A DNA stretch of 39,338 nt, taken from IMG/VR virus record IMGVR_UViG_3300032240_001396, positions 1-39,338 of that record; one strand, 5' to 3'. Below are positions 53 through 31,412 of the stretch, piece by piece. Made by a program: the position numbers and the translations under genes. The notes beneath the pieces were generated by a model. The model ran no database searches. It saw only the letters and a program-made list of their open reading frames with translations, and was not told the origin of the DNA. Origin of the DNA: a virus. How positions within the stretch are numbered: position 1 is the first letter of the stretch; every line of letters starts with the position of its first letter.

Positions 53-3000
53 ATGGCAAACGAATTTGTAGCAAAAAATGGTTTAATTAGCAATGGTAAC
101 ATTACTGCAAACGGTAGTATTATCGCAAACAGTTTTTCAGGCAGTCTCTATGGAACAAGTAGTGCAGCCAATAGTAGCTCATATGCTTTAACTGCCTCAT
201 ATGCAGCCAATGGTGGTGGAGCATCACTTTCCACGGGTTCAACATATCCCATAACGTCAAGCTGGTCAAATAATTCTTTAACGGCTTCATATGTTGAAAA
301 TGGGCCAGATGTAAATATTACATCTGATTCCGGTAATATAAATTTCAACGTTTTTCCAACATACAATTCATATACTGCACCTGGTATATCATTAATAACT
401 AATAACGTTGAACGATTTAAAGTTAATGTTAACACCGATGCTTCGGGTGAACATGCGGATATATTTTTCTTGAGTAGTGCAAGTTTTATAGGCCCAGGTT
501 ACGAAGGATATATGGGCAATGTTTTCGGTATGCATGTCAAAAACATGAATATTTCCGAAGACAATAGAATGTTTGTGTGGCGTATTAAAGACCCTGCATC
601 TGCGTATAGTGATACTGTTGGTCAAGATTCTGGTTCATATACAGTATTTGAAAATAGACGTGACCCAAATTCTTCCGATATTGGTTATGGAGTATATGCA
701 AACTTTTTAATGTGTGACCAAAATGGTAATGTGGGCCTTGGTAATTTGACCGATGCATCTGATGACCACGGTATATTCCCTCCTGCTAAAGTATCTATTT
801 ATGGAAGTGGGCCAACATCTCCATATCCAATATTTAATGTTATTAATTATGTTAGTTCAAATACTTCATATTTTTTAATTAATAATGATGGAAAAATTGG
901 CATAAATAATACTTCTCCATCTTACACGTTAGATATTAACGGTGATTTGGGTAATAGTGCAACCTCTGGGTTTTTAATTAATGGAACGGATAATCATTTT
1001 TCTGGATTTAATACATTCGGTGACACTTATCATCATGATTATAATTGGTGTAATGAATTTATACAATCGCCCACTTATGGTAATCCTGGTTTTGTAGCAA
1101 AATTTATTTCTTCCGACAATGCCACATCTGGTATGGGTATTATTACCGCTGATAATACAAATGGTTTGTTTTTAGGTGCAGGAAGATTTAATTTGTCAAG
1201 TATAGGAGTAAATGATACTTTTGCACAAGTAGGCATTGCTGATGGAAGTGTTAGCAAATTTTGTTTCTTAGATGGTTTTGGAAAAGTAAGCAATCTATTA
1301 CACATTTCATGTTCTGTTATTTCAGGGTCTGTATTTACTGGAGTGGCTGCAACATCGGTGTCTGCTTCATTTGCGTTTACAGCTTCATTTGTAAGAAATT
1401 CAATTAGTGCATCATATGTTACTGGGTCGGTGCATAATTCAACAAATCCTGCATTAAGTGCATCATATGCAGTGTCTGCTTCATTTGCACCAACTAATAC
1501 AAATATAACGGCCTCTTGGAGCATTAATGCAGTGACTGCTTCTTACATTACTGCGAGCAATGTTGTAGGAAATGTTTCTAGTGCGTCATATGCATTGAGT
1601 GCGTCATATGCTCCGGTTAACACTAACATAACCGCATCGTGGGCAGCAAATGCTTTGACTGCATCATACGTTAATCCGTTAAATCAAACTTTTATATTAA
1701 GTGGTAGCATGATTACCACGGGTAGTAATACTTTGATTGGGAATACTACATTAACAGGCAGTATAACAATTAGCAGCAGTTTAGGTGTAACAAATCCAAC
1801 AGTCAAAATTTATGGCGATGTTCAACATAACGGCTATATTCGCTTTGACCCTGTTACTACAAACATTAATAACGCAATTAGCGCAAGTTATATTTATGTT
1901 AGTGGGTCTACAAATGATTTATATTTTTCTCAAAATGGTAGCGGATATAGTAATACTACACGTCTTCGCTGGTTGGAAGGAAACCTATATACTGGTATTT
2001 TGCATGGTGGTGTAATTTCAAGCGTTCCTAATTCTACAACGTTTACCGTTATGAGTGGTAGTGGTATAATTGTCAATTTAAATGCATTTACAGGCAGTAG
2101 TCCATTTCCAACGATTAAATATATTACATGGAATACCCAAACTTACCCAATTACATATAGTGGAAGTGCTAAAATAACATATGTTGGTGTAGATAATACT
2201 GGGACTGTTATACAACAAACCTCCGCTTGGGGTTCCGTAGATACTAATCAATGGGATAATCAAATATATTTGGGTGTTGTTTTACATTTAAGTGGAAGTG
2301 TAAGCACAGGCACATATAACAGTCCGCAAATTAGTTATGGAAATTTTCAACAAACCGACGATTTTTTAAGAGCATTTGGGCCATTAAAAATCAGCGGTCA
2401 TACATTATTAGCAAGTGGTAGTGGAACAACATTAAGTGTAACAAAAACTGGGGGCGTTTCTTATAAGATTGGTGGTAACTATGTTGTAAATCCAAACCAT
2501 CCTAGCACTATTGTAGAAAATTCAATCACTTCAAGTAAAATTTACAGATATTATTTAAGCGGAAGTGTTCCAATTATTGATACGGGTGTTGGAAATGCAG
2601 GATATACAAATATTGATAATACACAATACGTAAATACTGCCACAGGACAATTGGCTGGTGTGACTGGTGGACAATATACATTACAACGAGTTTTTTGGGT
2701 TCCAAATAGTCCAACCAATGCTTTTATCGTATATTATGGAAATGCAAAATACAACAGCTTAATTGATGCTGTTAATGCAATACAAACTGAACCATTTTCT
2801 GAAGCACCTAATACCGCATTAAATGCTATACTTGTGGCATATATTGCGATTAACGGTGGGTCGGGGGTATCTTTAAATAACACATCTCAAGCAAACATAA
2901 TTCAAGCTGGGTTGTTTAGAAATGTTGGCGGTCAAGGTGGGGGCAGCACGACAGTATCCACTGCATTATCTGCATTAAGTGATGTAGCATTATCTAATTT

Positions 3001-5107
3001 GACCAAAGGAGATTTGTTGGTGTATGGGTCAACTGGCGGAAGTCAATGGAATAACACTAAAATTTTAAGCGGTAGTTATGGTCTATCTGGTAGTTTGGTT
3101 ACTGACAGTGGAACCTCGATTGGTAATGGTATAATTACTACAACTATAAGCGCAAGCTCAATTACCGCAAGTATTTTCAGCGGTAGTTTCAGCGGTAGTC
3201 ATTACGGAACAAGTAGTTTTTCTATTACGGCAAGTTATGCGTTAACCTCGTCATATGGAATAACTAGCTCATATAGTTTAAGCAGTTCATATGCACTCAA
3301 TTCCGTTTCTGCAAGTTATTATCAATTACCATCACAAATAAGTGTGACTGGTATATCAGGGTCGTTTACTGGTTCTCATATTGGTAATACAGTGGGAACT
3401 GCATCTTGGGCAACCAATGCCATAACAGCTTCATATATTACATCGAGTAATATAATTGGTATTGTAACAAGTGCAAGTTTTGCTACGTCAGCATCTTGGT
3501 CGCCAGTTCAAATAAGCGGTTCGTGGGCATCAAGTTCGTTTAGTTCCAGCTATGCATTAAGTGCATCAAATTCATTAACGGCATCATATATAACCGCAAG
3601 TAGAGTTGTTGGAACAATTATTAGTGCCTCATATGCATTAACTGCAAGTTATGCTGCTTCGGCAAATGCTACTTTAACAACGGGCGCATCATATAACATA
3701 ACATCAAGTTGGGCGACAAGTTCATTGACTGCTAGTTACCTAACACCATCCAACAGTTACACTGTAACAAATTTTTCCGCAAGCGGTGTTATTGATAGTA
3801 AAGGAATACATAATTACGGTCAATGTATTTTAGACAATATAACTGGACTTGGTAGCAACGTATTTCAATTGAAAATGTCAGGTGGAAATGGTGTATGTGA
3901 TTTTCACACGATTGATGGTGGTAGTTGCCAAATTCAATTTACTGATGATACTGACGGTAATTCTTGGACAGTGGGAATGAATCCGGGTTATTATAGTGAC
4001 CAGAGATTCGTATTTCGTCAAAGCCAAATGGGTGATGCAATTATTATTGGTAGAGATATGAAGGTTGGTATTCAAACTCTTGGATTGCCAAATTATGAAT
4101 TGGATGTAAATGGGTCATTAAACATTGAAAGTGCTAATATATATTGTGGGTCTGGTAATGATACATTGACTATAAATACCGCAGATGGAAGAATTTTGTT
4201 TGGCGGATTTGGCACAGTGTCTACTATTGACAGTAATACTGGTGTCCCTCTTGCGTTAAATAGTAATAATACTCAAAATGTTGGTATTAGGATTGCATCA
4301 CCAGCTTATGCATTAGATGTTGACGGTGATATTAATTTTACTGGTGTATTTAGATACAATGGAAATCCATACACTGCATCAAATGCATTAACTGCGTCTT
4401 ACTTAATTGGCACAATACCAAGTGCTTCATATGCATTAAGTGCATCATTTACTACCACCGCATCATATGTAAAAAATGCGATAACTGCTTCTTATGTCAC
4501 ATCAAGTAATATTATAGGAATTGTTACTTCTGCTTCATATGCATTAAGTGCTTCATGGAGTCCTGTTCCAGTAAGTTCAAGTTATTCAATTACAAGTTCA
4601 TTTGCGACGACTTCAAGTTATTATGGTGGTAATATTTTAAACGTTCAACTACCACCACAAATAAATGTGACTGGCGTAAGCGCATCATTCACTGGCTCAC
4701 ACATTGGTAATACTATCGGGACAGCATCGTGGGCAAATAACGCATTAACTGCTTCTTACATTACATCATCTGCTATCAATGGAGTAATTGCGAACGCCGT
4801 GTCGTCAAGTTATTTCAGTGGGTCGAGTATTACATCAAGTAATATATATTTTACTGGTAATATTTATAAAAACAATGCACCTTTAGTAATTGCTGGATTA
4901 GTTTTAAGTAGCAGTTTTATAGGAAGTCCATTTTATTACAGTGCAAGTATATCGGGGATGCTTGACACAAATTATGCAATTTCCGTGACGGGCGTGGATT
5001 CTCGTGCATGGAGTTATAGTGCAAAAACCACATCTGGCTTTGTTATAAATTCAAACAGTTCACAGCCGTTGACTGGTGAAGTTAGTTGGCAGGTAATACA
5101 TATTTAA
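53..5107 (+). CDS. Very large repeat-rich tail fibre / adhesin (1684 aa)
   Basis: Probable receptor-binding or tail-fibre protein of the virion. The sequence is dominated by short repeats of the type SASYALSASYA and TASYITSSN, dense in Ser, Ala, Thr, Asn and Tyr, as in beta-structured trimeric phage fibres. A longer module starting QLPSQISVTG (about residue 1091) recurs as QLPPQINVTG (about residue 1532). Three copies of a VGI..P.Y.LDV.GD element are seen (around nt 890-947, 4060-4116 and 4277-4336); this pattern is common in fibre proteins. The middle part (nt about 1830-3060) is non-repetitive. No signal peptide or S74 chaperone domain is visible. The ATG at 53 has no strong ribosome site. 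The next gene starts 5 nt after the stop and carries the same repeats, so the two probably form one adhesion apparatus. The fibre role is inferred from repeat type and length; the exact position in the tail is unknown. Confidence -1.
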   Translation: MANEFVAKNGLISNGNITANGSIIANSFSGSLYGTSSAANSSSYALTASYAANGGGASLSTGSTYPITSSWSNNSLTASYVENGPDVNITSDSGNINFNVFPTYNSYTAPGISLITNNVERFKVNVNTDASGEHADIFFLSSASFIGPGYEGYMGNVFGMHVKNMNISEDNRMFVWRIKDPASAYSDTVGQDSGSYTVFENRRDPNSSDIGYGVYANFLMCDQNGNVGLGNLTDASDDHGIFPPAKVSIYGSGPTSPYPIFNVINYVSSNTSYFLINNDGKIGINNTSPSYTLDINGDLGNSATSGFLINGTDNHFSGFNTFGDTYHHDYNWCNEFIQSPTYGNPGFVAKFISSDNATSGMGIITADNTNGLFLGAGRFNLSSIGVNDTFAQVGIADGSVSKFCFLDGFGKVSNLLHISCSVISGSVFTGVAATSVSASFAFTASFVRNSISASYVTGSVHNSTNPALSASYAVSASFAPTNTNITASWSINAVTASYITASNVVGNVSSASYALSASYAPVNTNITASWAANALTASYVNPLNQTFILSGSMITTGSNTLIGNTTLTGSITISSSLGVTNPTVKIYGDVQHNGYIRFDPVTTNINNAISASYIYVSGSTNDLYFSQNGSGYSNTTRLRWLEGNLYTGILHGGVISSVPNSTTFTVMSGSGIIVNLNAFTGSSPFPTIKYITWNTQTYPITYSGSAKITYVGVDNTGTVIQQTSAWGSVDTNQWDNQIYLGVVLHLSGSVSTGTYNSPQISYGNFQQTDDFLRAFGPLKISGHTLLASGSGTTLSVTKTGGVSYKIGGNYVVNPNHPSTIVENSITSSKIYRYYLSGSVPIIDTGVGNAGYTNIDNTQYVNTATGQLAGVTGGQYTLQRVFWVPNSPTNAFIVYYGNAKYNSLIDAVNAIQTEPFSEAPNTALNAILVAYIAINGGSGVSLNNTSQANIIQAGLFRNVGGQGGGSTTVSTALSALSDVALSNLTKGDLLVYGSTGGSQWNNTKILSGSYGLSGSLVTDSGTSIGNGIITTTISASSITASIFSGSFSGSHYGTSSFSITASYALTSSYGITSSYSLSSSYALNSVSASYYQLPSQISVTGISGSFTGSHIGNTVGTASWATNAITASYITSSNIIGIVTSASFATSASWSPVQISGSWASSSFSSSYALSASNSLTASYITASRVVGTIISASYALTASYAASANATLTTGASYNITSSWATSSLTASYLTPSNSYTVTNFSASGVIDSKGIHNYGQCILDNITGLGSNVFQLKMSGGNGVCDFHTIDGGSCQIQFTDDTDGNSWTVGMNPGYYSDQRFVFRQSQMGDAIIIGRDMKVGIQTLGLPNYELDVNGSLNIESANIYCGSGNDTLTINTADGRILFGGFGTVSTIDSNTGVPLALNSNNTQNVGIRIASPAYALDVDGDINFTGVFRYNGNPYTASNALTASYLIGTIPSASYALSASFTTTASYVKNAITASYVTSSNIIGIVTSASYALSASWSPVPVSSSYSITSSFATTSSYYGGNILNVQLPPQINVTGVSASFTGSHIGNTIGTASWANNALTASYITSSAINGVIANAVSSSYFSGSSITSSNIYFTGNIYKNNAPLVIAGLVLSSSFIGSPFYYSASISGMLDTNYAISVTGVDSRAWSYSAKTTSGFVINSNSSQPLTGEVSWQVIHI
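3323..3530 (+). repeat. Fibre module copy 1 (intragenic repeat)
   Basis: Encodes a block beginning QLPSQISVTG and running through FTGSHIGNT, GTASWA, TASYITSSNIIG and SASWSP. It recurs with clear similarity at 4646-4790, and its second half recurs at about 4470-4575. DNA-level similarity is high enough to allow recombination between copies. Confidence -1.
4646..4790 (+). repeat. Fibre module copy 2 (intragenic repeat)
   Basis: Second copy of the module at 3323-3530: QLPPQINVTG, then FTGSHIGNT, GTASWA and TASYITSS. It differs mainly by synonymous or conservative changes, which suggests old duplication followed by drift. Confidence -1.
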
Positions 5108-9995: not shown

Positions 9996-10487
9996 ATGGC
10001 AGACTTATTAAACAGCAACGAGATATTTTATCGTAATTGGGAACCTAAAGTAAAGAATCGCTTCATTCTTTACATGGATGGGATTCCTTCATTTATCATC
10101 AAAAAAGTGAAGCGTCCAACCGTCAAGAGCGAAAAGAAGAATCTTGACCACATCAATACCCAAAGATACTACAAGGGAAAAACCACTTGGGACAGTATTA
10201 CGATGGAATTGTATGACCCAATTGTGCCTGCTGGCTCACAAGCCGTGATGGAATGGGTTCGTTTGAGCCATGAATCCGTCACAGGTCGTGATGGTTATCA
10301 AGATTTCTATAAAAAAGATTTGACTGTAAATGTATTAGGCCCAGTTGGTGATAAGGTTGAAGAATGGACACTCAAGGGTGCGTGGATTGAACAGGCAGAC
10401 TTTCAAGAAGGTGATTGGTCTGATGGTGGTGACCCGCTTACCATTGCATTAACGGTAAGTGTTGATTATTGTATCTTGCAATACTAA
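9996..10487 (+). CDS. gp19: Tail tube protein, T4 gp19 family
   Basis: Major subunit of the inner tube of the contractile tail. The 163-aa length equals that of T4 gp19, and the sequence carries the family pattern: N-terminal NRFILYMDGIPSFIIKKVKR, the central MELYDPIVPAGSQAVMEWVR, then KGAWIEQADFQEGDWSDGG before a final beta strand ending VDYCILQY. The gene has noticeably less AT-biased third positions than its neighbours (many C/G-ending codons), as expected for a very highly expressed structural gene. It is transcribed alone: a late-type motif lies upstream and a strong terminator directly downstream. High confidence. Confidence -1.
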   Translation: MADLLNSNEIFYRNWEPKVKNRFILYMDGIPSFIIKKVKRPTVKSEKKNLDHINTQRYYKGKTTWDSITMELYDPIVPAGSQAVMEWVRLSHESVTGRDGYQDFYKKDLTVNVLGPVGDKVEEWTLKGAWIEQADFQEGDWSDGGDPLTIALTVSVDYCILQY

Positions 10488-10503: not shown

Positions 10504-10538
10504 AAAAACCGCTACTCCTAAAAAGGTAGCGGTTTTTT
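10504..10538 (+). terminator. Rho-independent terminator after tail tube
   Basis: 12-bp stem AAAAACCGCTAC / GTAGCGGTTTTT with a 10-nt loop and T-run to 10538. Confidence -1.
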
Positions 10539-10547
10539 GTTTGTTTT

Positions 10548-10557
10548 GATATTTATT
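10548..10557 (+). promoter_or_regulatory. Putative late-promoter motif GATATTTATT
   Basis: Ends 3-4 nt before the ATG at 10561; located directly after the tail tube terminator. Confidence -1.
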
Positions 10558-10560
10558 AAT

Positions 10561-10911
10561 ATGGATAAAAATAACACATTGAAAGATTTTTTCAGAGAAG
10601 TATTCACTACTGCATTGAATGAAGAAGGTGCTGATGAATTGCCTGATAAAATGAAGCCCAAAGTTGCACAATTAAAAAAAAGAGGGGCATATGATAAAAT
10701 CAAAGAAAAGCAAGAAATTTATAAAGGATTGCAACAAACATTGAAAACAAAAGCAGATGCGTTGAGAATTACTTTAAGAGATAAAAATTTAGAGAATAGA
10801 AATGAAGTAATTAAAAAAATGAAAGCGGACATTGAATTATCAAAACAAGCGGTGGATAATGCGAAACAAAATATAAATGCGGCAAAATTGGAATACAATG
10901 CTATAAAATAA
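10561..10911 (+). CDS. Small helical protein with capsid-targeting-like N-terminus (116 aa)
   Basis: Start at 10561 (an in-frame TTG at 10537 lies inside the terminator region and is rejected). Residues 1-22 (TLKDFFREVFTTALNEEG core) match the amphipathic N-terminal peptide shared by three other late proteins. The peptide contains an LNE tripeptide at 19-21, resembling the LxE cleavage sites of T4-type prohead protease. The remainder is a Lys/Glu/Gln-rich coiled coil, reminiscent of scaffold or internal head proteins. It has its own late motif and terminator. No domain of known function. Head location is an inference. Confidence -1.
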   Translation: MDKNNTLKDFFREVFTTALNEEGADELPDKMKPKVAQLKKRGAYDKIKEKQEIYKGLQQTLKTKADALRITLRDKNLENRNEVIKKMKADIELSKQAVDNAKQNINAAKLEYNAIK

Positions 10912-10986: not shown

Positions 10987-11814
10987 ATGAGTGAAGAAAC
11001 AATTGCAATTACCAGAAATCATCTACCAGTTCAACCTATGGAACAAAAATCTGAACAACCGAAATACCCATCAGAATCAATTGAATTACCAAGTAAGGGA
11101 TATTTCTATTCAACAAAATCCCCACTTAGTAGCGGAAAAGTCGATTTGAAAATGATGACCGCTAAAGAAGAAGATATTCTCACTAATGAAAATTTAATCA
11201 AACGTGGCGATGTATTGAATAGACTTCTTGAATCATTGATTATTAATAAGGATATAGATTCCGATGATTTGTTGATTGGTGATAAAAATGCACTATTTGT
11301 ATCAGCTAGACGTTTAGCATATGGTGACAATTATGGCCCCGTGAAAATTACATGCAGGAATTGTAGAGAAGATTCTGAAGTATCAATTGATTTGTCTGAA
11401 ATAAAAGAGAAGTCAGTGGATTTGTCATCGGTTCAAAAAGGACAAAATGTTTTTACTATAACCTTACCTTTTAGTAAAAGAACAATTCAGTATAAACTTC
11501 CTACGTCAAAAGACGAAAAAGCTATTGAAGATGAAATTAAGGCATTGACTAAAATCAATAAAGCTGCAAGTGCCGAAGTAACTACAAGACTTAAATTTTT
11601 GATTGTATCCGTAGACGGTTCATCTGATAAATTGACCATCAGAAAATTCGTTGACGAAGAATTGCTATCAAGAGATAGCATTACATTGCGAGCAGAAATC
11701 AAGAAAAACTCACCGGATTTGGATATGAGTTTCAATTTCACATGCGAACATTGTAATAATTCGGAAAGGATGGATGTGCCAATGACGGCCCAGTTTTTTT
11801 GGCCTAACTCCTGA
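10987..11814 (+). CDS. gp26: gp26-like baseplate/tail assembly protein with CxxC pairs; zero frame of a frameshift pair
   Basis: Resembles the T4 gp26 baseplate hub family by its conserved SIELPSKGYFYSTKSPLSSG segment, followed by MMTAKEEDILTNENLIKRG and a C-terminal Zn-like module: CRNC (C123, C126) and CEHC (C253, C256). The protein ends AQFFWPNS at TGA 11812. It lies immediately upstream of the tape measure, the slot where tailed phages place tail assembly chaperones made as two products by frameshifting. Directly before its stop is a run of seven T (11794-11800), and the +1 frame is open for a further 72 codons with no start codon of its own. The gp26 family call is good; the chaperone role is inferred from position and the frameshift arrangement. 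Confidence -1.
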   Translation: MSEETIAITRNHLPVQPMEQKSEQPKYPSESIELPSKGYFYSTKSPLSSGKVDLKMMTAKEEDILTNENLIKRGDVLNRLLESLIINKDIDSDDLLIGDKNALFVSARRLAYGDNYGPVKITCRNCREDSEVSIDLSEIKEKSVDLSSVQKGQNVFTITLPFSKRTIQYKLPTSKDEKAIEDEIKALTKINKAASAEVTTRLKFLIVSVDGSSDKLTIRKFVDEELLSRDSITLRAEIKKNSPDLDMSFNFTCEHCNNSERMDVPMTAQFFWPNS

Positions 11815-12019
11815 ATATAAGCTTTATCTCCATAAGCAGATATTCGAATTAGCATATTATTCAAATGGGGGATTTAATCAGGAAATTATTTATAATCTCC
11901 CCATTTATCTTCGTAATTTCTATTATAATTGTTTAGCAGACGTTAAACGAGTAGAAAACAGTCGAGAGTCAGAGCAACCTGATAAAAATGTGATTGCAAC
12001 CCCACCGAAAGTCAAATAA
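11794..12019 (+). CDS. Frameshift extension of the gp26-like gene (72 codons after GGC 11801)
   Basis: Open frame from the T7 run to TAA 12017-12019, in +1 relative to the gp26-like gene. It encodes GLTPEYKLYLHKQIFELAYY, then SNGGFNQEIIYNLPIYLRNFYY and a hydrophilic tail. The upstream in-frame stop is at 11782-11784 (TGA), and there is no ATG, GTG or TTG before the last 10 codons, so independent initiation is unlikely. The text FFGLTPEY reads naturally across the T-run if one base is skipped or two are re-read (CAG TTT TTT to GGC CTA). The segment resembles the short conserved proteins found between gp26-like and tape-measure genes in other phages. It is probably made as a fused long form, like lambda G-T. 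A single-base assembly error in the T-run is the main alternative. Confidence -1.
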
Positions 12020-12043: not shown

Positions 12044-14707
12044 ATGGCAGATATTTCATTAGATACAGCACAGAAAGCTTTACAGTTGTATGAACAACGT
12101 CGTAAAGAGCAAGAAGCTACCCTCGAATCTATCGAGAAGGAACGCAATCTTATGGCCGAGGTTGCAAAACAAGCCAAATTGACGAATATTGAATACGATA
12201 GAACTACCAAATCTTTTGGTAAGAATATTGAAAAATTAAGCACTATTGAACGTCTTGAGGCAAAAATAGGAAATCATCAATTAAAAATACATGCCATTGA
12301 ATCTGAATTACACGATGGTTTGGAATTGCGTGGAAAATTAACCGAAAGCATTGAAAAGGGATTAATTGCCGCAGAAGAACGTAGAAAAGAACTCAAGCGT
12401 GAAAAAATTGCATTAGAAAAATCTTTATTAGAAGTCATGTATGATGAAACAACTAATGAAGAAGAAAAAATTGAAATTTATGACAGTATCCAGAAAAAGT
12501 TGAAAAACATTCAAGAAACTAGAGATTCAATTACGAAACAATTAAAAGACGAAAAGCAGACGTTAATAAAACATGATGCTACGTTGGCAGGTTTAAATGA
12601 TAAGTTAAATTCTGAAGTTGGTATTAGAAATAAGTTAAAAGCTTCGCTGGAACACCAACATAAATTAACGGGATTAACCGATAAAATTTTAAGTGCCTTA
12701 CCTGGAAGAGTCGGTGCATTTATCAAAGGATTGAATGCAGTTGATATTGCATTATTGTCTATAATTGGATTAATTGGAAAAGGGGTATCAAATTTTTTAC
12801 ATTTTGATAAATCCGCAACACAACTTCGTAAAGAATTAGGCTTGATTCGTGGAGAGGCAGATGGTCTTGAAAAGAACATCATGGAAATCACGAAGGAGTC
12901 TGCTGACATGGGTGTTAAATTTGAGGATGTTGCACATACCACTAAAGCGTTAAGCGTGGCATTTACTTCTTTGGTCGCCAAAGATAAAGAGCTTGTTAGA
13001 AACACAACTTTACTAGCAACTCAATTGGGAATTTCAGCCGAGGAATCTGCTGGCTTTTTGAGAACTATGGGTGGCATATCTAGGACAACCGCAAGCTCTA
13101 ACACTAGCATGATTGGGTATGCAAAAGCGATGTCTAATGCAGCAGGTGTTCCTTTAGCAAACGTAATGCATGACGTTGCAACTGCAAGTGACGAAGCGAG
13201 AATTTACACAAAAGGAACTGCTCAAGAATTAATTAAAGCTGTTGTAGAAGCTAGATTATTAGGAACAACTTTAGATAGAATGGCAGCAACATCTCGTATG
13301 TTGCTAGATTTTCAATCCAGTATTGAAAATGAACTTGAGGCAAGTGTAATGTTGGGCAAAAATCTCAATTTCCAACGTGCAAGGGAGTTGGCATTTCATA
13401 AAGACATTATCGGAGCAAATAAAGAAATTCTTAAAATATCTAAGCAAGTTGATTTTTCGAACATGAATCCAATGCAAATGGAAGCATTTGCTAAAGCCGC
13501 AGGAAAATCTGTAGCCGAATTACAGGACATGATTCAAGCGGATAAGAATATTGAATGGATTCAAAAAAATGGAACAAAAGAACAAAGAGAGCAATTGTCT
13601 AATTTGCAGCGTTTAAAAAATCTCCGTGAATCTGAAGCTAAAGACGTGGGTAAAATTGCAATTGCTGAATTGCAAAGACAGTCAAACCAAGAAAAGATAG
13701 CAGCGGTTCAAGATAAATTTAACAAATTAATTTTGGAGCTAACTGGGCCAGTAATGGAAATTACCGATGTATTATTAACCGCCGCATCATACACATTACC
13801 ATTTTTATTAAAAGGTGTATTACCAATTATAGGGGCTTTCAAAATGTTATCCAGATTTGCTGGCGATTTGACACCTAAATTAATACCTTTCATTTCTAAG
13901 TTTTCCTCTGTTGGTGGATTTTTTGGAAATTTAATATTAAAAGCTGGAGAATTTTTCAAATCTATAGGAACAATTTTTAAATTTGCTAAACTAGGATTAA
14001 AAGGTGTTCCATTATTAGGTGAAGTGATTATAGCATTTGAAGCTGTAATTTCATTGACTAAAGTTTTTAAGAAACTCATACCTGATATGTTTAATGATTT
14101 TAAAGAGGGTAATTGGGGCAAAGCATTATTAAAAGGACTAGGTTCATCATTATTACTTGGCCCTAAATTGGTGTATGATATTTTAATCAAACCAATATTT
14201 GAATTATTAAGTATGATGTTTCCTAATATAGCCACAGGGATTGTGAATGGAATCAAGTCGGTTGGTAAAAGCATATCGGATAGCTTAACTGGCCCGTTTA
14301 AAGATGCGTGGGATTGGATTTCTGAATTTTTTGTAGGACACTCACCTTCTAAATTAGGACTTGGTATTTTAAATGGTATTGTATCAATTGGAGGTATGTT
14401 GTTAAATGCTATAACGGCTCCGTTCACAAGTGCATTTAATTTTGTAAGCGGAATGTTTGGTGGGCCAAAGGTTCCAAAGCCAAGTGATATGATTGGTGGA
14501 TTGGTAAATAAAGGAAATACCGATTTACCGATAACTGCAACAAAAAAAGAAGCAGTAGACACTAATAAAGTGGTTGTTGATAAACTTGATGAATTGATTG
14601 GATTAATGAAATCTGGTGGAATAGCTGTAAACATTGATGGTAATAGAATAAGTTATTTTTTAACTAAGAACACGATGGAACGTGGTGGATTAGGCGCAAC
14701 ATCTTAA
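12044..14707 (+). CDS. Tail tape measure protein (887 aa)
   Basis: Sets tail length and is carried inside the tail tube. Residues 1-220 are a long charged coiled coil (QLYEQRRKEQEATLESIEKE and similar). A hydrophobic helix (VDIALLSIIGLIGKGVSNFL) follows at about 233, then a globular helical segment with RLLGTTLDRMAATSRMLLDF and the Asn/Met-rich region NMNPMQMEAFAKAAGKSVAE. The last 300 residues alternate hydrophobic helices (for example LPFLLKGVLPIIGAFKML) with Gly/Pro-rich linkers, as expected for the membrane-interacting end of tape measure proteins. The ORF is among the largest here and sits between the gp26-like/frameshift gene and baseplate genes. The class assignment is firm; whether it is orthologous to T4 gp29 cannot be told by eye. 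Confidence -1.
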   Translation: MADISLDTAQKALQLYEQRRKEQEATLESIEKERNLMAEVAKQAKLTNIEYDRTTKSFGKNIEKLSTIERLEAKIGNHQLKIHAIESELHDGLELRGKLTESIEKGLIAAEERRKELKREKIALEKSLLEVMYDETTNEEEKIEIYDSIQKKLKNIQETRDSITKQLKDEKQTLIKHDATLAGLNDKLNSEVGIRNKLKASLEHQHKLTGLTDKILSALPGRVGAFIKGLNAVDIALLSIIGLIGKGVSNFLHFDKSATQLRKELGLIRGEADGLEKNIMEITKESADMGVKFEDVAHTTKALSVAFTSLVAKDKELVRNTTLLATQLGISAEESAGFLRTMGGISRTTASSNTSMIGYAKAMSNAAGVPLANVMHDVATASDEARIYTKGTAQELIKAVVEARLLGTTLDRMAATSRMLLDFQSSIENELEASVMLGKNLNFQRARELAFHKDIIGANKEILKISKQVDFSNMNPMQMEAFAKAAGKSVAELQDMIQADKNIEWIQKNGTKEQREQLSNLQRLKNLRESEAKDVGKIAIAELQRQSNQEKIAAVQDKFNKLILELTGPVMEITDVLLTAASYTLPFLLKGVLPIIGAFKMLSRFAGDLTPKLIPFISKFSSVGGFFGNLILKAGEFFKSIGTIFKFAKLGLKGVPLLGEVIIAFEAVISLTKVFKKLIPDMFNDFKEGNWGKALLKGLGSSLLLGPKLVYDILIKPIFELLSMMFPNIATGIVNGIKSVGKSISDSLTGPFKDAWDWISEFFVGHSPSKLGLGILNGIVSIGGMLLNAITAPFTSAFNFVSGMFGGPKVPKPSDMIGGLVNKGNTDLPITATKKEAVDTNKVVVDKLDELIGLMKSGGIAVNIDGNRISYFLTKNTMERGGLGATS

Positions 14708-19859: not shown

Positions 19860-21209
19860 ATGATTGTCAAAACCGAACAGGATTATAATAATTTCTTGAA
19901 TGAAAATTCCATTGGACGCTGTATAATGCACGTTATTGGAAACAATGATTCTTTACACGGTGCTGTCAATCGTCCCCTAATTTTATTCATAAAAAATATA
20001 GATTCACAAAAAACTTATGTGTTAAATATACAACACTATGACGTTCAATTTTCAATTGATAAATCACGATTGATAAACGACTTGAACAATCTATACTGCA
20101 TTAAGTTTGTCTTTGATAAGAAGCGTTTTCTTCACATTCTACCTATAGTGAATTTGAAAGATTTGAAATTGATAGATTTTATGGAAAACGGGGTAATAGA
20201 AGATGATGATGTTTATCCAAAAAATTACAAATTTTATTACAACCGTTTCAAAAAGTTCAATGATATAAATAACTCAATTCCAATCTCAATCCACACCCAG
20301 TATTTCATGAACATATGTGATGACTATGAAGACACTGTAAAAACATTCAAGGAAGACGATGGCTATGTAAATATAAACGACAATATTATTGAAAATTTAC
20401 AGAAAATTGAAAGTCATGGATTATATGTGAATTCATTAGAATTTGAGTCATATTTTGAAGATAAGGAAATTCGTCCGGTAAACAATTTGGTATTTACAGA
20501 ATATAATATTTACACTTCAACTGGAAGACCTAGTAATAGATTTGGTGGAATTAACTATGCTGCACTCGATAAAAAAAATGGATGTAGGAATAGTTTTATA
20601 TCTAGGCACGGAGATGCTGGAATGTTGTTTTTGATTGATTATTCTGCATATCATCCTCATATTGTTGCAAAATTAATCAATTATGAGTTGCCTAGAGAAG
20701 CATATGAATATCTAGGAAAATATTACTACAAGAAAGATGAATTGTCACCTACTGAGGTAAAGATGGCAAAAAACTTTACATTTCAATGTATGTATGATGA
20801 TATTCCAAAAGAATTGCTAGACATTCCATATTTCAAGAAAATGGATGAATATATTAAGCACAGATGGGAGTTTTTTTCTGAAAATTCATATGTTGAAACC
20901 CCATTATTTAAGCGTAAAATAACGAATAAACATATTTTAGACCCAAAACCCAGTAAATTGTTTAATTATATTCTACAGGCTAGTGAGACGGAATTTGGTA
21001 TGAGTGTATTAGCCAACATTAATAAATATTTGGAAAACAAGAAAACCAAGCCTATCATATACACTTACGATAGTTTGTTATATGATGTTCATAAAGATGA
21101 TGGTAAACAGACATTAGTTGATATAAAAAACATAATGGCAAGTAAGGATTTTCCTATAAAATGCTTTATTGGTCATACATATCAAACGATGGTTCCTGTT
21201 ATTATTTGA
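19860..21209 (+). CDS. Divergent family A DNA polymerase-like protein (449 aa)
   Basis: The C-terminal half retains the order of PolA palm/fingers motifs. YTSTGRPSNRFGGINYAAL (219-236) matches the T.TGR.S...N motif. Motif A is LIDYSAYHPHIVA (D260). An O-helix-like MAKNFTFQCMYDD (302-314) keeps K304. NYILQASETEFGMSVLANI (369-387) matches the Q-helix region, and motif C is YTYDSLLYDV, with D404 where VHDE is usual. Residues 1-200 do not show recognisable 3'-5' exonuclease DxE motifs. It lacks the YG of the O helix and the H and E of motif C, so activity is uncertain. It is unusual in being surrounded by structural genes, and it has its own TTGACA box. It could be the replicative polymerase, a primase-like or TLS enzyme, or a degenerate copy. 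Confidence -1.
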   Translation: MIVKTEQDYNNFLNENSIGRCIMHVIGNNDSLHGAVNRPLILFIKNIDSQKTYVLNIQHYDVQFSIDKSRLINDLNNLYCIKFVFDKKRFLHILPIVNLKDLKLIDFMENGVIEDDDVYPKNYKFYYNRFKKFNDINNSIPISIHTQYFMNICDDYEDTVKTFKEDDGYVNINDNIIENLQKIESHGLYVNSLEFESYFEDKEIRPVNNLVFTEYNIYTSTGRPSNRFGGINYAALDKKNGCRNSFISRHGDAGMLFLIDYSAYHPHIVAKLINYELPREAYEYLGKYYYKKDELSPTEVKMAKNFTFQCMYDDIPKELLDIPYFKKMDEYIKHRWEFFSENSYVETPLFKRKITNKHILDPKPSKLFNYILQASETEFGMSVLANINKYLENKKTKPIIYTYDSLLYDVHKDDGKQTLVDIKNIMASKDFPIKCFIGHTYQTMVPVII

Positions 21210-28736: not shown

Positions 28737-30707
28737 ATGAGTATCATTACAGATAAATTCGCAAATAAATACAAAAACAAACAACCAAAATGGGGCTTTA
28801 ATGGATTAGGATATATCGTCTATAAGAGAACTTACGCAAGATTAAAAGAAAACGGAGAAACGGAAGAATGGCATGAAACAGTTCAACGTTGTGTAAACGG
28901 CGCACAGGAAATTGGTGCATGTTACACACAAGATGAAGCTGAAAGATTGTATGATTTAATTTTTAATTTAAAGTGCAATTTTGCTGGTAGAATGCTATGG
29001 CAACTTGGAACTCCCACTGTAAAACGTTGGGGTGCAAACAGTTTATTGAACTGTTGGGCGGTTGCAATGCGAGAACCTAAAGCATTTTTGTTTTTATTTG
29101 AAAACTTGATGTTAGGTGGTGGAGTTGGATATAGCATTAGACGTGAAGATGTTCATGAATTACCTAAAATCAAATCAGGTGTCAACATCACACACCAAAA
29201 CACAAAAGATGCAGACTTCATTGTGCCAGATAGTCGTGAAGGATGGGTGAAATTGTTGGAAAACGTATTAAATGCGTATTATGTTAATGGTAAATCATTT
29301 TCATATTCTACTATTTTAGTCCGTGGCGCAGGCGAGCAGATTCACGGATTCGGCGGAAAAGCTAGTGGCCCATCAATTTTAGTTGAAGGTATTAATAAAA
29401 TCTGTAAAATCTTCACTTCTCGTGAAGGCAGAAAACTTCGCAGTATTGATGTTCTTGACATTTGCAATATTATTGGAAGTGTTGTAGTTGCTGGTAACGT
29501 TCGTAGAAGTGCTGAAATCGCATTGGGTGACCCTGATGATATTTTATATCTTCGTGCAAAAAATTGGTCGAACGGCGATGTTCCCAATTGGAGAGCTATG
29601 AGTAATAATACAATTTACGCAGATAGCTTTAACCATATTATGAATGAAGTTTGGGAAAATGGTTACAATCTTGATAAAGAATCTGGTTCAGCCAAAGGTG
29701 AGCCATACGGATTTTTCAATTTACCATTATCCCAAAAGTTTGGACGTATCAAAGACGGCCCAATTAAGAACAATAAGATGTATCCAACTGATTTGGATAA
29801 TTGTGAAATGACGAATCCATGTGCAGAAATTAGTTTGAGCAATTACGAATGCTGTAATTTGTGCGAGTTATATCTTAACAACATCGAATCAAAAGATGAA
29901 TTGATTGAATGTGCTAAATTGCTATATAAGACACAAAAGGCAATCGCCGCACTTCCGTTTATTCATGAAGAAACCAATAAGATTGTTCATAAGAATATGA
30001 GATTGGGCTTGGGAGTAACTGGAATTTGTCAATCATTGGAAAAAGTTGATTGGTTAGATGATTGCTATGTTGCACTTCGTAAGTTGGACAAACAATGGAG
30101 CAAAGAACGTGGTTGGCCGGAAAGTATAAAACTCACAACAATTAAACCAAGTGGAACATTGAGTCTATTAGGAGGAGCCACACCAGGAGTGCATCCAGCA
30201 TATAGTAAATATTATTTAAGAACGGTCAGAATGGCTTCTAACGATAAGTTAGTTCAAATCTGTAAAGATTTGGGATACCATACCGAATTTTTATTAAATT
30301 TTGACGGCACTGAAAACAGAGATACCGTTGTTGTCTATTTTCCATGTGAAACCCCTGATAATGCTATATTGGCTAAAGATATGGATATTATTAAACAATT
30401 GGAAATGGTCAAGAAGTTGCAAGAAATTTGGAGTGATAATGCAGTTAGCGTAACCGCATATTACAAGGAACAAGAATTGCAAATATTGAAAGATTGGTTA
30501 AAACACAATTATAAAGACAATATTAAAAGCGTCAGTTTCTTATTACATCAAAATCACGGATTCAAACAAGCACCGTATCAAGAAATTGACAAGGAAGCCT
30601 ACGATAAAGCCAAATCGAAAGTTAAAGAATTGACTAATATCAAAATCAATGGTGGAGATGTAATTCAAGGATTGGAATGCGAAGGTGGAGCATGTCCAAT
30701 TAGATAA
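28737..30707 (+). CDS. nrdJ: Class II (adenosylcobalamin-dependent) ribonucleotide reductase, monomeric RTPR type
   Basis: Makes deoxyribonucleotides using a B12-generated thiyl radical, so no NrdB subunit is needed. NPCAEI (N360, C362, E364) is the catalytic centre with C362 the thiyl cysteine. C106 (SLLNCWAVAM) and C373 (11 residues after C362) fit the redox pair. The C-terminus CEGGACPIR (C648, C653) matches the shuttle tail known from Lactobacillus RTPR. Other blocks are LFENLMLGGGVGYSI, AGNVRRSAEIALGD and TTIKPSGTLSLLGGATPGVH. At 656 aa it is shorter than the usual 730-740, implying a trimmed domain. It has a strong ribosome site after a long hairpin and a terminator directly downstream. 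High confidence. Confidence -1.
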   Translation: MSIITDKFANKYKNKQPKWGFNGLGYIVYKRTYARLKENGETEEWHETVQRCVNGAQEIGACYTQDEAERLYDLIFNLKCNFAGRMLWQLGTPTVKRWGANSLLNCWAVAMREPKAFLFLFENLMLGGGVGYSIRREDVHELPKIKSGVNITHQNTKDADFIVPDSREGWVKLLENVLNAYYVNGKSFSYSTILVRGAGEQIHGFGGKASGPSILVEGINKICKIFTSREGRKLRSIDVLDICNIIGSVVVAGNVRRSAEIALGDPDDILYLRAKNWSNGDVPNWRAMSNNTIYADSFNHIMNEVWENGYNLDKESGSAKGEPYGFFNLPLSQKFGRIKDGPIKNNKMYPTDLDNCEMTNPCAEISLSNYECCNLCELYLNNIESKDELIECAKLLYKTQKAIAALPFIHEETNKIVHKNMRLGLGVTGICQSLEKVDWLDDCYVALRKLDKQWSKERGWPESIKLTTIKPSGTLSLLGGATPGVHPAYSKYYLRTVRMASNDKLVQICKDLGYHTEFLLNFDGTENRDTVVVYFPCETPDNAILAKDMDIIKQLEMVKKLQEIWSDNAVSVTAYYKEQELQILKDWLKHNYKDNIKSVSFLLHQNHGFKQAPYQEIDKEAYDKAKSKVKELTNIKINGGDVIQGLECEGGACPIR

Positions 30708-30791: not shown

Positions 30792-31412
30792 ATGGGTATA
30801 GAAATTTTACAACGTATTCAAGACATTTCGGGTTATGTCGCAGGCACTTTAACTGCAATTGCTACTATTGGAACATTTGGATACAAGTATGGAAAAAAGT
30901 GGTATTATCGCCGTAAAGAACATACCAAACGCCAACAAGAAATGGCGGATAAAATTAATATAATATTTAGTGAATTAACACCTAATCACGGAAGCTCTCT
31001 GAAAGACAAAGTAAACAATATAGACGAAAAACTTGTAGAAAATACGGTTTTAACAAAAGACAACTCGGCAATGTTGAAAGTAGTCACTGCTCGTCAGCAA
31101 TGGATTTTAGACATGCAAACATCTCCCATATTTGAAAGTGATTGTAATGGATTATGCACATGGGTAAACGATGCATATATAGATATTATAAAGAGAAGTA
31201 AGGAAGAAATCTTGGGACATGGGTGGAAAAATTTTATTCACGAAGATGACAGGGAAAGAGTGGTGAATGAATGGGATAATGCCGTAGCAGAACAAAGAAG
31301 TAGCCAATCTAGCTACAGAATTGTTTCAAAAGACGGTAAAATCTACGAAGTTGAATGTTATGCCGTAAAACACAAAGATAATGGTTATACAGGCAATTTA
31401 AAGATAAAATAA
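30792..31412 (+). CDS. Membrane-anchored PAS-domain protein (206 aa)
   Basis: One N-terminal transmembrane segment (about residues 12-31, VAGTLTAIATIGTFGYKYG) is followed by a basic stretch (KKWYYRRKEHTKRQQ) that would face the cytoplasm. A helical linker precedes a C-terminal PAS domain at about 110-203: SPIFESDCNGLCTWVNDAYI, then SKEEILGHGWKNFIHEDDRE and SYRIVSKDGKIYEVECYAVK. PAS domains sense ligands or redox state and mediate dimerisation. No kinase, cyclase or other output domain follows, so it either acts on a host partner or has been co-opted structurally. Preceded by a late-type motif and not part of the RNR operon. Domain call good; role unknown. Confidence -1.
   Translation: MGIEILQRIQDISGYVAGTLTAIATIGTFGYKYGKKWYYRRKEHTKRQQEMADKINIIFSELTPNHGSSLKDKVNNIDEKLVENTVLTKDNSAMLKVVTARQQWILDMQTSPIFESDCNGLCTWVNDAYIDIIKRSKEEILGHGWKNFIHEDDRERVVNEWDNAVAEQRSSQSSYRIVSKDGKIYEVECYAVKHKDNGYTGNLKIK

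Follow-up and report, generated by a model that had tools for sequence, protein, structure and literature searches.

G-T frameshifting is widely conserved, with T4 as an exception (Atkins et al. 2016, PMC5009743). In T4, gp26 and gp51 were listed as hub assembly chaperones in a 2010 review of the tail (PMC3004832), and a comparison of T4-like genomes from the same year reported cyanophage gp51 at ~20% length (PMC3037559). As cited in PMC10885494 and PMC12846349, Vladimirov, Gautam and Davidson (Vladimirov et al. 2022) identified which proteins of T4-like phages are the tail assembly chaperones, some phages having a short gene and a fused long one; PMC12846349 also cites this work for poly-T −1 signals. 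The tail chaperone gpGT of phage Mu is called the only known natural case of a −2 shift (PMC3498833) and +1 is thought likely for a tail gene of haloarchaeal HSTV-2 (PMC5009743), so shifts other than −1 occur in tail chaperones elsewhere. For +1 shifting, UUU_C slippage has been established experimentally for influenza UCC_UUU_CGU, and a UUU_C-type class limited to certain A-site codons has been predicted (PMC3498833). No RNA structure is evident at that PA-X site (PMC5009743). At the prfB site, UUU belongs to the codons that rank next in proneness to +1 shifting (PMC10885494).

Here we describe a locus in the window, by which we mean the whole 39,338-nucleotide stretch of viral DNA analyzed (IMG/VR record IMGVR_UViG_3300032240_001396), where we think it very probable that one gene of a T4-like phage gives rise to two chaperone lengths by a +1 slip before the tape measure. 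The zero-frame gene (positions 10987–11814, plus strand) encodes a gp26-like protein of 275 aa, the putative short form (TAC-N), which ends in ...TAQFFWPNS*. Near its 3′ end lie seven consecutive T (11794–11800), and its stop codon, TGA 11812–11814, comes shortly after TTT TTT TGG CCT, at the coordinates given in the earlier note. The gp26-like ORF matches PF12322 (E = 8.1e-15; 55.5 bits versus a cut-off of 24.5) and phrog_150 (E = 1.1e-17), and its AlphaFold2 model (pLDDT 90) has as best PDB fold match the HK97 tail assembly chaperone 2ob9, a weak hit (E = 1.6).

Beyond the slip site, the +1 frame of the same strand is open from 11801 to 12016 and closes at TAA 12017–12019. This second ORF (ORF2; 11801–12019) specifies 72 aa plus the stop codon, and selection, HMM and hhalign links and a structural model all point to it as the C-terminal domain of a long form (TAC-NC). 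The first ATG, GTG or TTG in the window's ORF2 is a GTG at codon 64 of 72, in line with the earlier claim that no start codon precedes the last ten codons. An upstream stop in the +1 frame had also been proposed; it is present, although it occupies 11783–11785, one base away from the claimed 11782. Five open codons separate this TGA from ORF2, so no start farther upstream could give access to it. The predicted fusion (10987–12019, plus strand), obtained by reading 10987–11799 and then 11801–12016, is a 343-aa long form with the junction ...MDVPMTAQFFGLTPEYKLYLHK....

Several lines of evidence indicate that ORF2 encodes protein. Across 73 independent close pairs, the first 40 codons of ORF2 show purifying selection in the +1 phase (omega = 0.12), and omega exceeds 1 in both other phases of the region; the value of 0.12 comes from the nearest independent pairs and replaces one of 0.65 from saturated, non-independent pairs. 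Changes at codon positions 1, 2 and 3 number 263, 141 and 764 in the same pairs, and the third-position excess persists (192 versus 56 and 25) in 22 pairs without ATG, GTG or TTG in the first 30 codons. The protein-type pattern is evident from codons 5–9 past the slip. The gp26-like and ORF2 halves were modelled separately; the ORF2 model consists of three helices (pLDDT 85), the first beginning at residue 4. Profile searches found no Pfam or PHROG match for ORF2 by itself, its model had no fold relative in the PDB and the profile of the fusion had no sequence relative there.

Directly downstream is the tape measure protein gene (12044–14707, plus strand; 887 aa), which matches phrog_58 tail length tape measure at E = 5.9e-5; the gene in the same position in Flavobacterium phage immuto is annotated as tape measure. 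The chaperone locus thus adjoins the tape measure gene, as expected of a T4-like chaperone. Upstream lies the gene for a tail tube protein (9996–10487, plus strand; phrog_4542, E = 1.2e-24; PF06841 below cut-off), followed by an ORF for a lysine-rich protein of 124 aa (10537–10911) between the tail tube and chaperone genes. Elsewhere the window encodes a probable tail fibre of 1,684 aa that carries many SSYALSASYA-like repeats and has no Pfam match (53–5107); a 449-aa protein with a partial family A DNA polymerase match below the Pfam cut-off (19860–21209); and a PAS-domain protein (30792–31412) adjoining a B12-dependent ribonucleotide reductase (28737–30707).

Profile comparisons connect the locus to the T4 proteins. 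Both T4 gp26 and T4 gp51 match PF12322. In relatives that have the downstream domain in −1, this −1 extension aligns with the final 50 residues of the gp51 family (E = 9.1e-7; phrog_634), and the +1 ORF2 in turn matches the −1 extension (E = 1.1e-6). ORF2 alone compared directly with T4 gp51 was not significant, the link running via the −1 family, and the fusion profile matches the T4 gp51 family at E = 4.2e-5 with an alignment that reaches the gp51 C-terminus. From PF12322 membership together with these extension links, T4 gp26 can be equated with the short form and gp51 with the long one; judged by homology, the locus encodes the paired short and long tail assembly chaperones of T4-like phages. 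The earlier note had proposed that frameshifting ahead of the tape measure yields a tail assembly chaperone in two products, a reading with which all of the evidence is consistent, but erred in stating that the gp26-like zero frame is not a known chaperone, since gp26 and gp51 had already been listed as such (PMC3004832). The gp26/gp51 link was reached independently here and is already known, not new.

To place the locus among its relatives, we compiled 342 loci with a gp26-like ORF from scans of viral contigs and from named phage records, and assigned the frame of the downstream domain with an HMM of that domain. The domain lies in +1 in 243 of them and in −1 in about 95 (one chance match, Stupor L175, having been removed); the remainder are truncated or lack it (T4, Stupor). 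In the first contig scan, the same +1 layout was found at 80 of 80 loci and kept by all 53 distinct downstream ORFs, which, with the 243 of 342 loci, is far beyond chance. Most of those 80 loci carry TTT TTT TGG CCT, five carry TTC TTT TGG CCT and one (L077) TTT CTA TGG CCT. Isolate genomes share the out-of-frame arrangement: Microcystis phage Mel-JY01 has TTT TTT TGG CCT and immuto has TTT CTT TGG CCT. The arrangement also holds with TTC TTT CGT CCC in Streptococcus phage GXN1, TTT TTT AGT ACC in Listeria LIS04 and TTT CTA TTC CCT in an uncultured 484-kb phage. Comparison with related genomes, as suggested in the earlier note, bears out a conserved layout, with the T-run present in most relatives but not all. 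In the records of immuto (MW353176; L082 3854–3964) and Mel-JY01 (L083 3737–3973), pieces of the frameshift domain are annotated as hypothetical proteins.

The −1 loci belong to cyanophages, KVP40-like vibriophages, Aeromonas and Rhizobium phages and one huge-phage group (for example, Syn9, P-SSM2, KVP40-like PG216, phiAS5, Yut3, RL38J1, S13 and phiN3). Nearly all have U UUU UUC, a few UUU or UUG in place of the last codon, the canonical heptamer being U UUU UUY. In several of these records, what is annotated as 'baseplate hub assembly catalyst gp51' is gp26's −1 extension cut back to a local start codon (L093 7248–7391 in Syn9, L182 3223–3396 in P-SSM2, L178 3295–3417 in phiAS5 and L176 3214–3375 in phiN3); the Vibrio PG216 record (L177 2474–3319) notes similarity to 40 residues at the C-terminal end of T4 gp51, with no frameshift annotated. 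In a gp26 tree built without the slip-site columns, the main +1 group forms one branch (SH-aLRT 99). Within it falls the single discordant locus, L261, which has a +1-type site (TTC TTT TGG CCC) and ORF2 in the −1 frame, possibly through a one-base assembly indel or a real change of direction. The Streptococcus/Listeria pair falls outside it, in a part of the tree with long branches, so +1 may have arisen once or twice.

In the window, the slip site is TTT TTT TGG (11794–11802, plus strand), and TTTTTTTGGCC was found there once when both strands were searched. The predicted reading places the Phe codon TTT 11797–11799 in the P site and TGG 11800–11802 in the A site, one base being skipped so that decoding resumes at GGC 11801. 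Across the 243 +1 loci, the conserved form is TTT TTT TGG/TAC CCT; the sites are TTT TTT TGG (155), TTT TTT TAC (36), TTT CTT TGG (36), TTC TTT TGG (5), TTT CTA TGG (5) and six singletons. The second Phe codon, where it is the one slipping, is always TTT in the +1 group, compared with 25% TTC among Phe codons of the same genes, and −1 loci almost always have TTC at this codon; because lineages are not independent, we attach no P value to this bias. Stimulatory RNA structure is seen in some +1 cases and is not required; here, a search downstream of the site found no conserved structure (mean z −0.55; no consensus pairs). No prfB-like Shine-Dalgarno spacing was seen by eye. As at programmed +1 sites, a conserved +1 ORF lies under selection without a start codon. 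The canonical G-T arrangement of a −1 ORF after X XXY YYZ does not occur in the window, where the −1 frame stops two codons past the slip site (LA*).

The geometry at the window's own site had been left open between +1 and −2. A programmed −2 shift on TTT TTT T as in phage Mu, with the product ...QFFFGLTPEYK, leads to the same frame, and seven T would by themselves permit the re-pairing. It is nevertheless unlikely given the relatives with TTC TTT TGG, TTT CTT TGG, TTT CTA TGG and TTC TTT CGT, where −2 would demand re-pairing that is impossible for tRNA-Phe or tRNA-Leu. At all of these, as at TTT CTA TTC, +1 re-pairing from UUU to UUY is possible, and movement of tRNA-Phe from UUU to UUU (UUU_U) or to UUC (UUU_C) fits every variant, with the slip at the first UUU in LIS04. 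At TTT CTT sites, a prfB-like slip of tRNA-Leu from CUU to UUU is an alternative, likewise +1. The tryptic junction peptide predicted for the window's phage is MDVPMTAQFFGLTPEYK after +1 versus MDVPMTAQFFFGLTPEYK after −2 (+147.07 Da). Slippage of RNA polymerase on the T7 run, which would create a mixed mRNA pool with no ribosomal shift, accords with the seven T of the window and most relatives, but the same +1 layout occurs at sites with only three or four consecutive T (L006, L031, L043, L077, L082 and L084), too short for polymerase slippage, and we regard it as very unlikely. Because the site variants fit only a +1 slip of P-site tRNA-Phe, they argue against both −2 and transcriptional slippage.

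That ORF2 is a separate small gene, expressed by internal initiation or reinitiation, is highly improbable. Some relatives do have an upstream-extended +1 frame with possible starts, and parts of ORF2 are annotated as separate genes in database records. Against this stand the late first start codon in the window, the 33 of 182 distinct ORF2s that lack any start between the stop before them and the end of codon 20, the onset of both ORF2 conservation and the first helix right at the slip, and T4 gp51, in which the same domain is fused in frame. An artifact might be suspected because the site is a homopolymer run, but hundreds of independent contigs and the isolate genomes of immuto and Mel-JY01 share the layout, ruling out sequencing error, and the strong constraint on ORF2 is at odds with a decayed gene; the two together have a negligible probability.

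We return to a ribosomal +1 slip. The sequence comparisons show a conserved layout, selection on ORF2, homology to T4 gp26/gp51 and site variants that suit +1 only; from these we infer that the shift takes place, and with it a rate, a product ratio, a pause at a slow A-site codon, chaperone activity and a role in tape-measure loading. Most ribosomes would stop at TGA 11812 and release the gp26-like short form. A minority would pause with tRNA-Phe on UUU 11797–11799 while the A site holds the Trp codon UGG, a slow-codon pause proposed by analogy with PA-X and prfB; one RNA base would then be skipped and ORF2 read to give the long form. Short and long forms would load the tape measure, the presumed client, while the extra domain would recruit the tail tube protein, the likely partner of the long form, as in lambda gpG/gpGT.

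Compared with known systems, the locus shares its family (PF12322/phrog_150) and the extra C-terminal domain of the long form with T4 gp26/gp51, but T4 uses two genes, one short and one permanently fused and long, whereas here one gene is combined with a +1 shift. The gp26 and truncated 'gp51' of cyanophages, KVP40-like phages and Aeromonas phages likewise comprise two ORFs, ordered as here and followed by a large gene, but shift −1 on U UUU UUY instead of +1 on UUU_UGG; lambda G/G-T also differs in direction (−1) and slip site. At influenza A PA-X (UCC_UUU_CGU), P-site tRNA-Phe likewise moves from UUU to UUY and no RNA structure is evident, and GXN1 carries UUU_CGU of the PA-X site itself, although PA-X involves a eukaryotic ribosome and an unrelated protein. 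Bacterial prfB (CUU_UGA) is similar in P-site re-pairing onto UUU and in its slow A-site codon, but it has a stop codon in the A site and an internal Shine-Dalgarno, in contrast to UGG or UAC with no such element seen here.

We found no literature report of +1 in the gp26/gp51 family, a search in which Vladimirov et al. 2022 is represented by the papers citing it, and the mechanism of +1 shifting, the restriction of its site and the change of shift direction inside one family look new. On balance, we favor the view that a UUU_Y slip of tRNA-Phe with a restricted A-site codon (UGG, UAC, CUU, CUA or CGU), unaided by RNA structure, a stop codon or a Shine-Dalgarno, took the place of an ancestral −1 site in the chaperone gene of a large T4-like clade, so that across the family one essential pair would be made by −1, by +1 or by gene duplication. 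For annotation, the cyanophage and vibriophage 'gp51', seemingly shortened by ~80% (PMC3037559), would be corrected to the shifted tail of gp26, and fragments akin to it are named hypothetical proteins in many genomes. The more than 200 aligned +1 sites, a natural set from bacterial viruses, also allow the rules that govern UUU_Y slippage to be derived and put to the test. More broadly, the findings suggest that selection keeps the short/long chaperone pair, while the decoding trick behind it can reverse direction.
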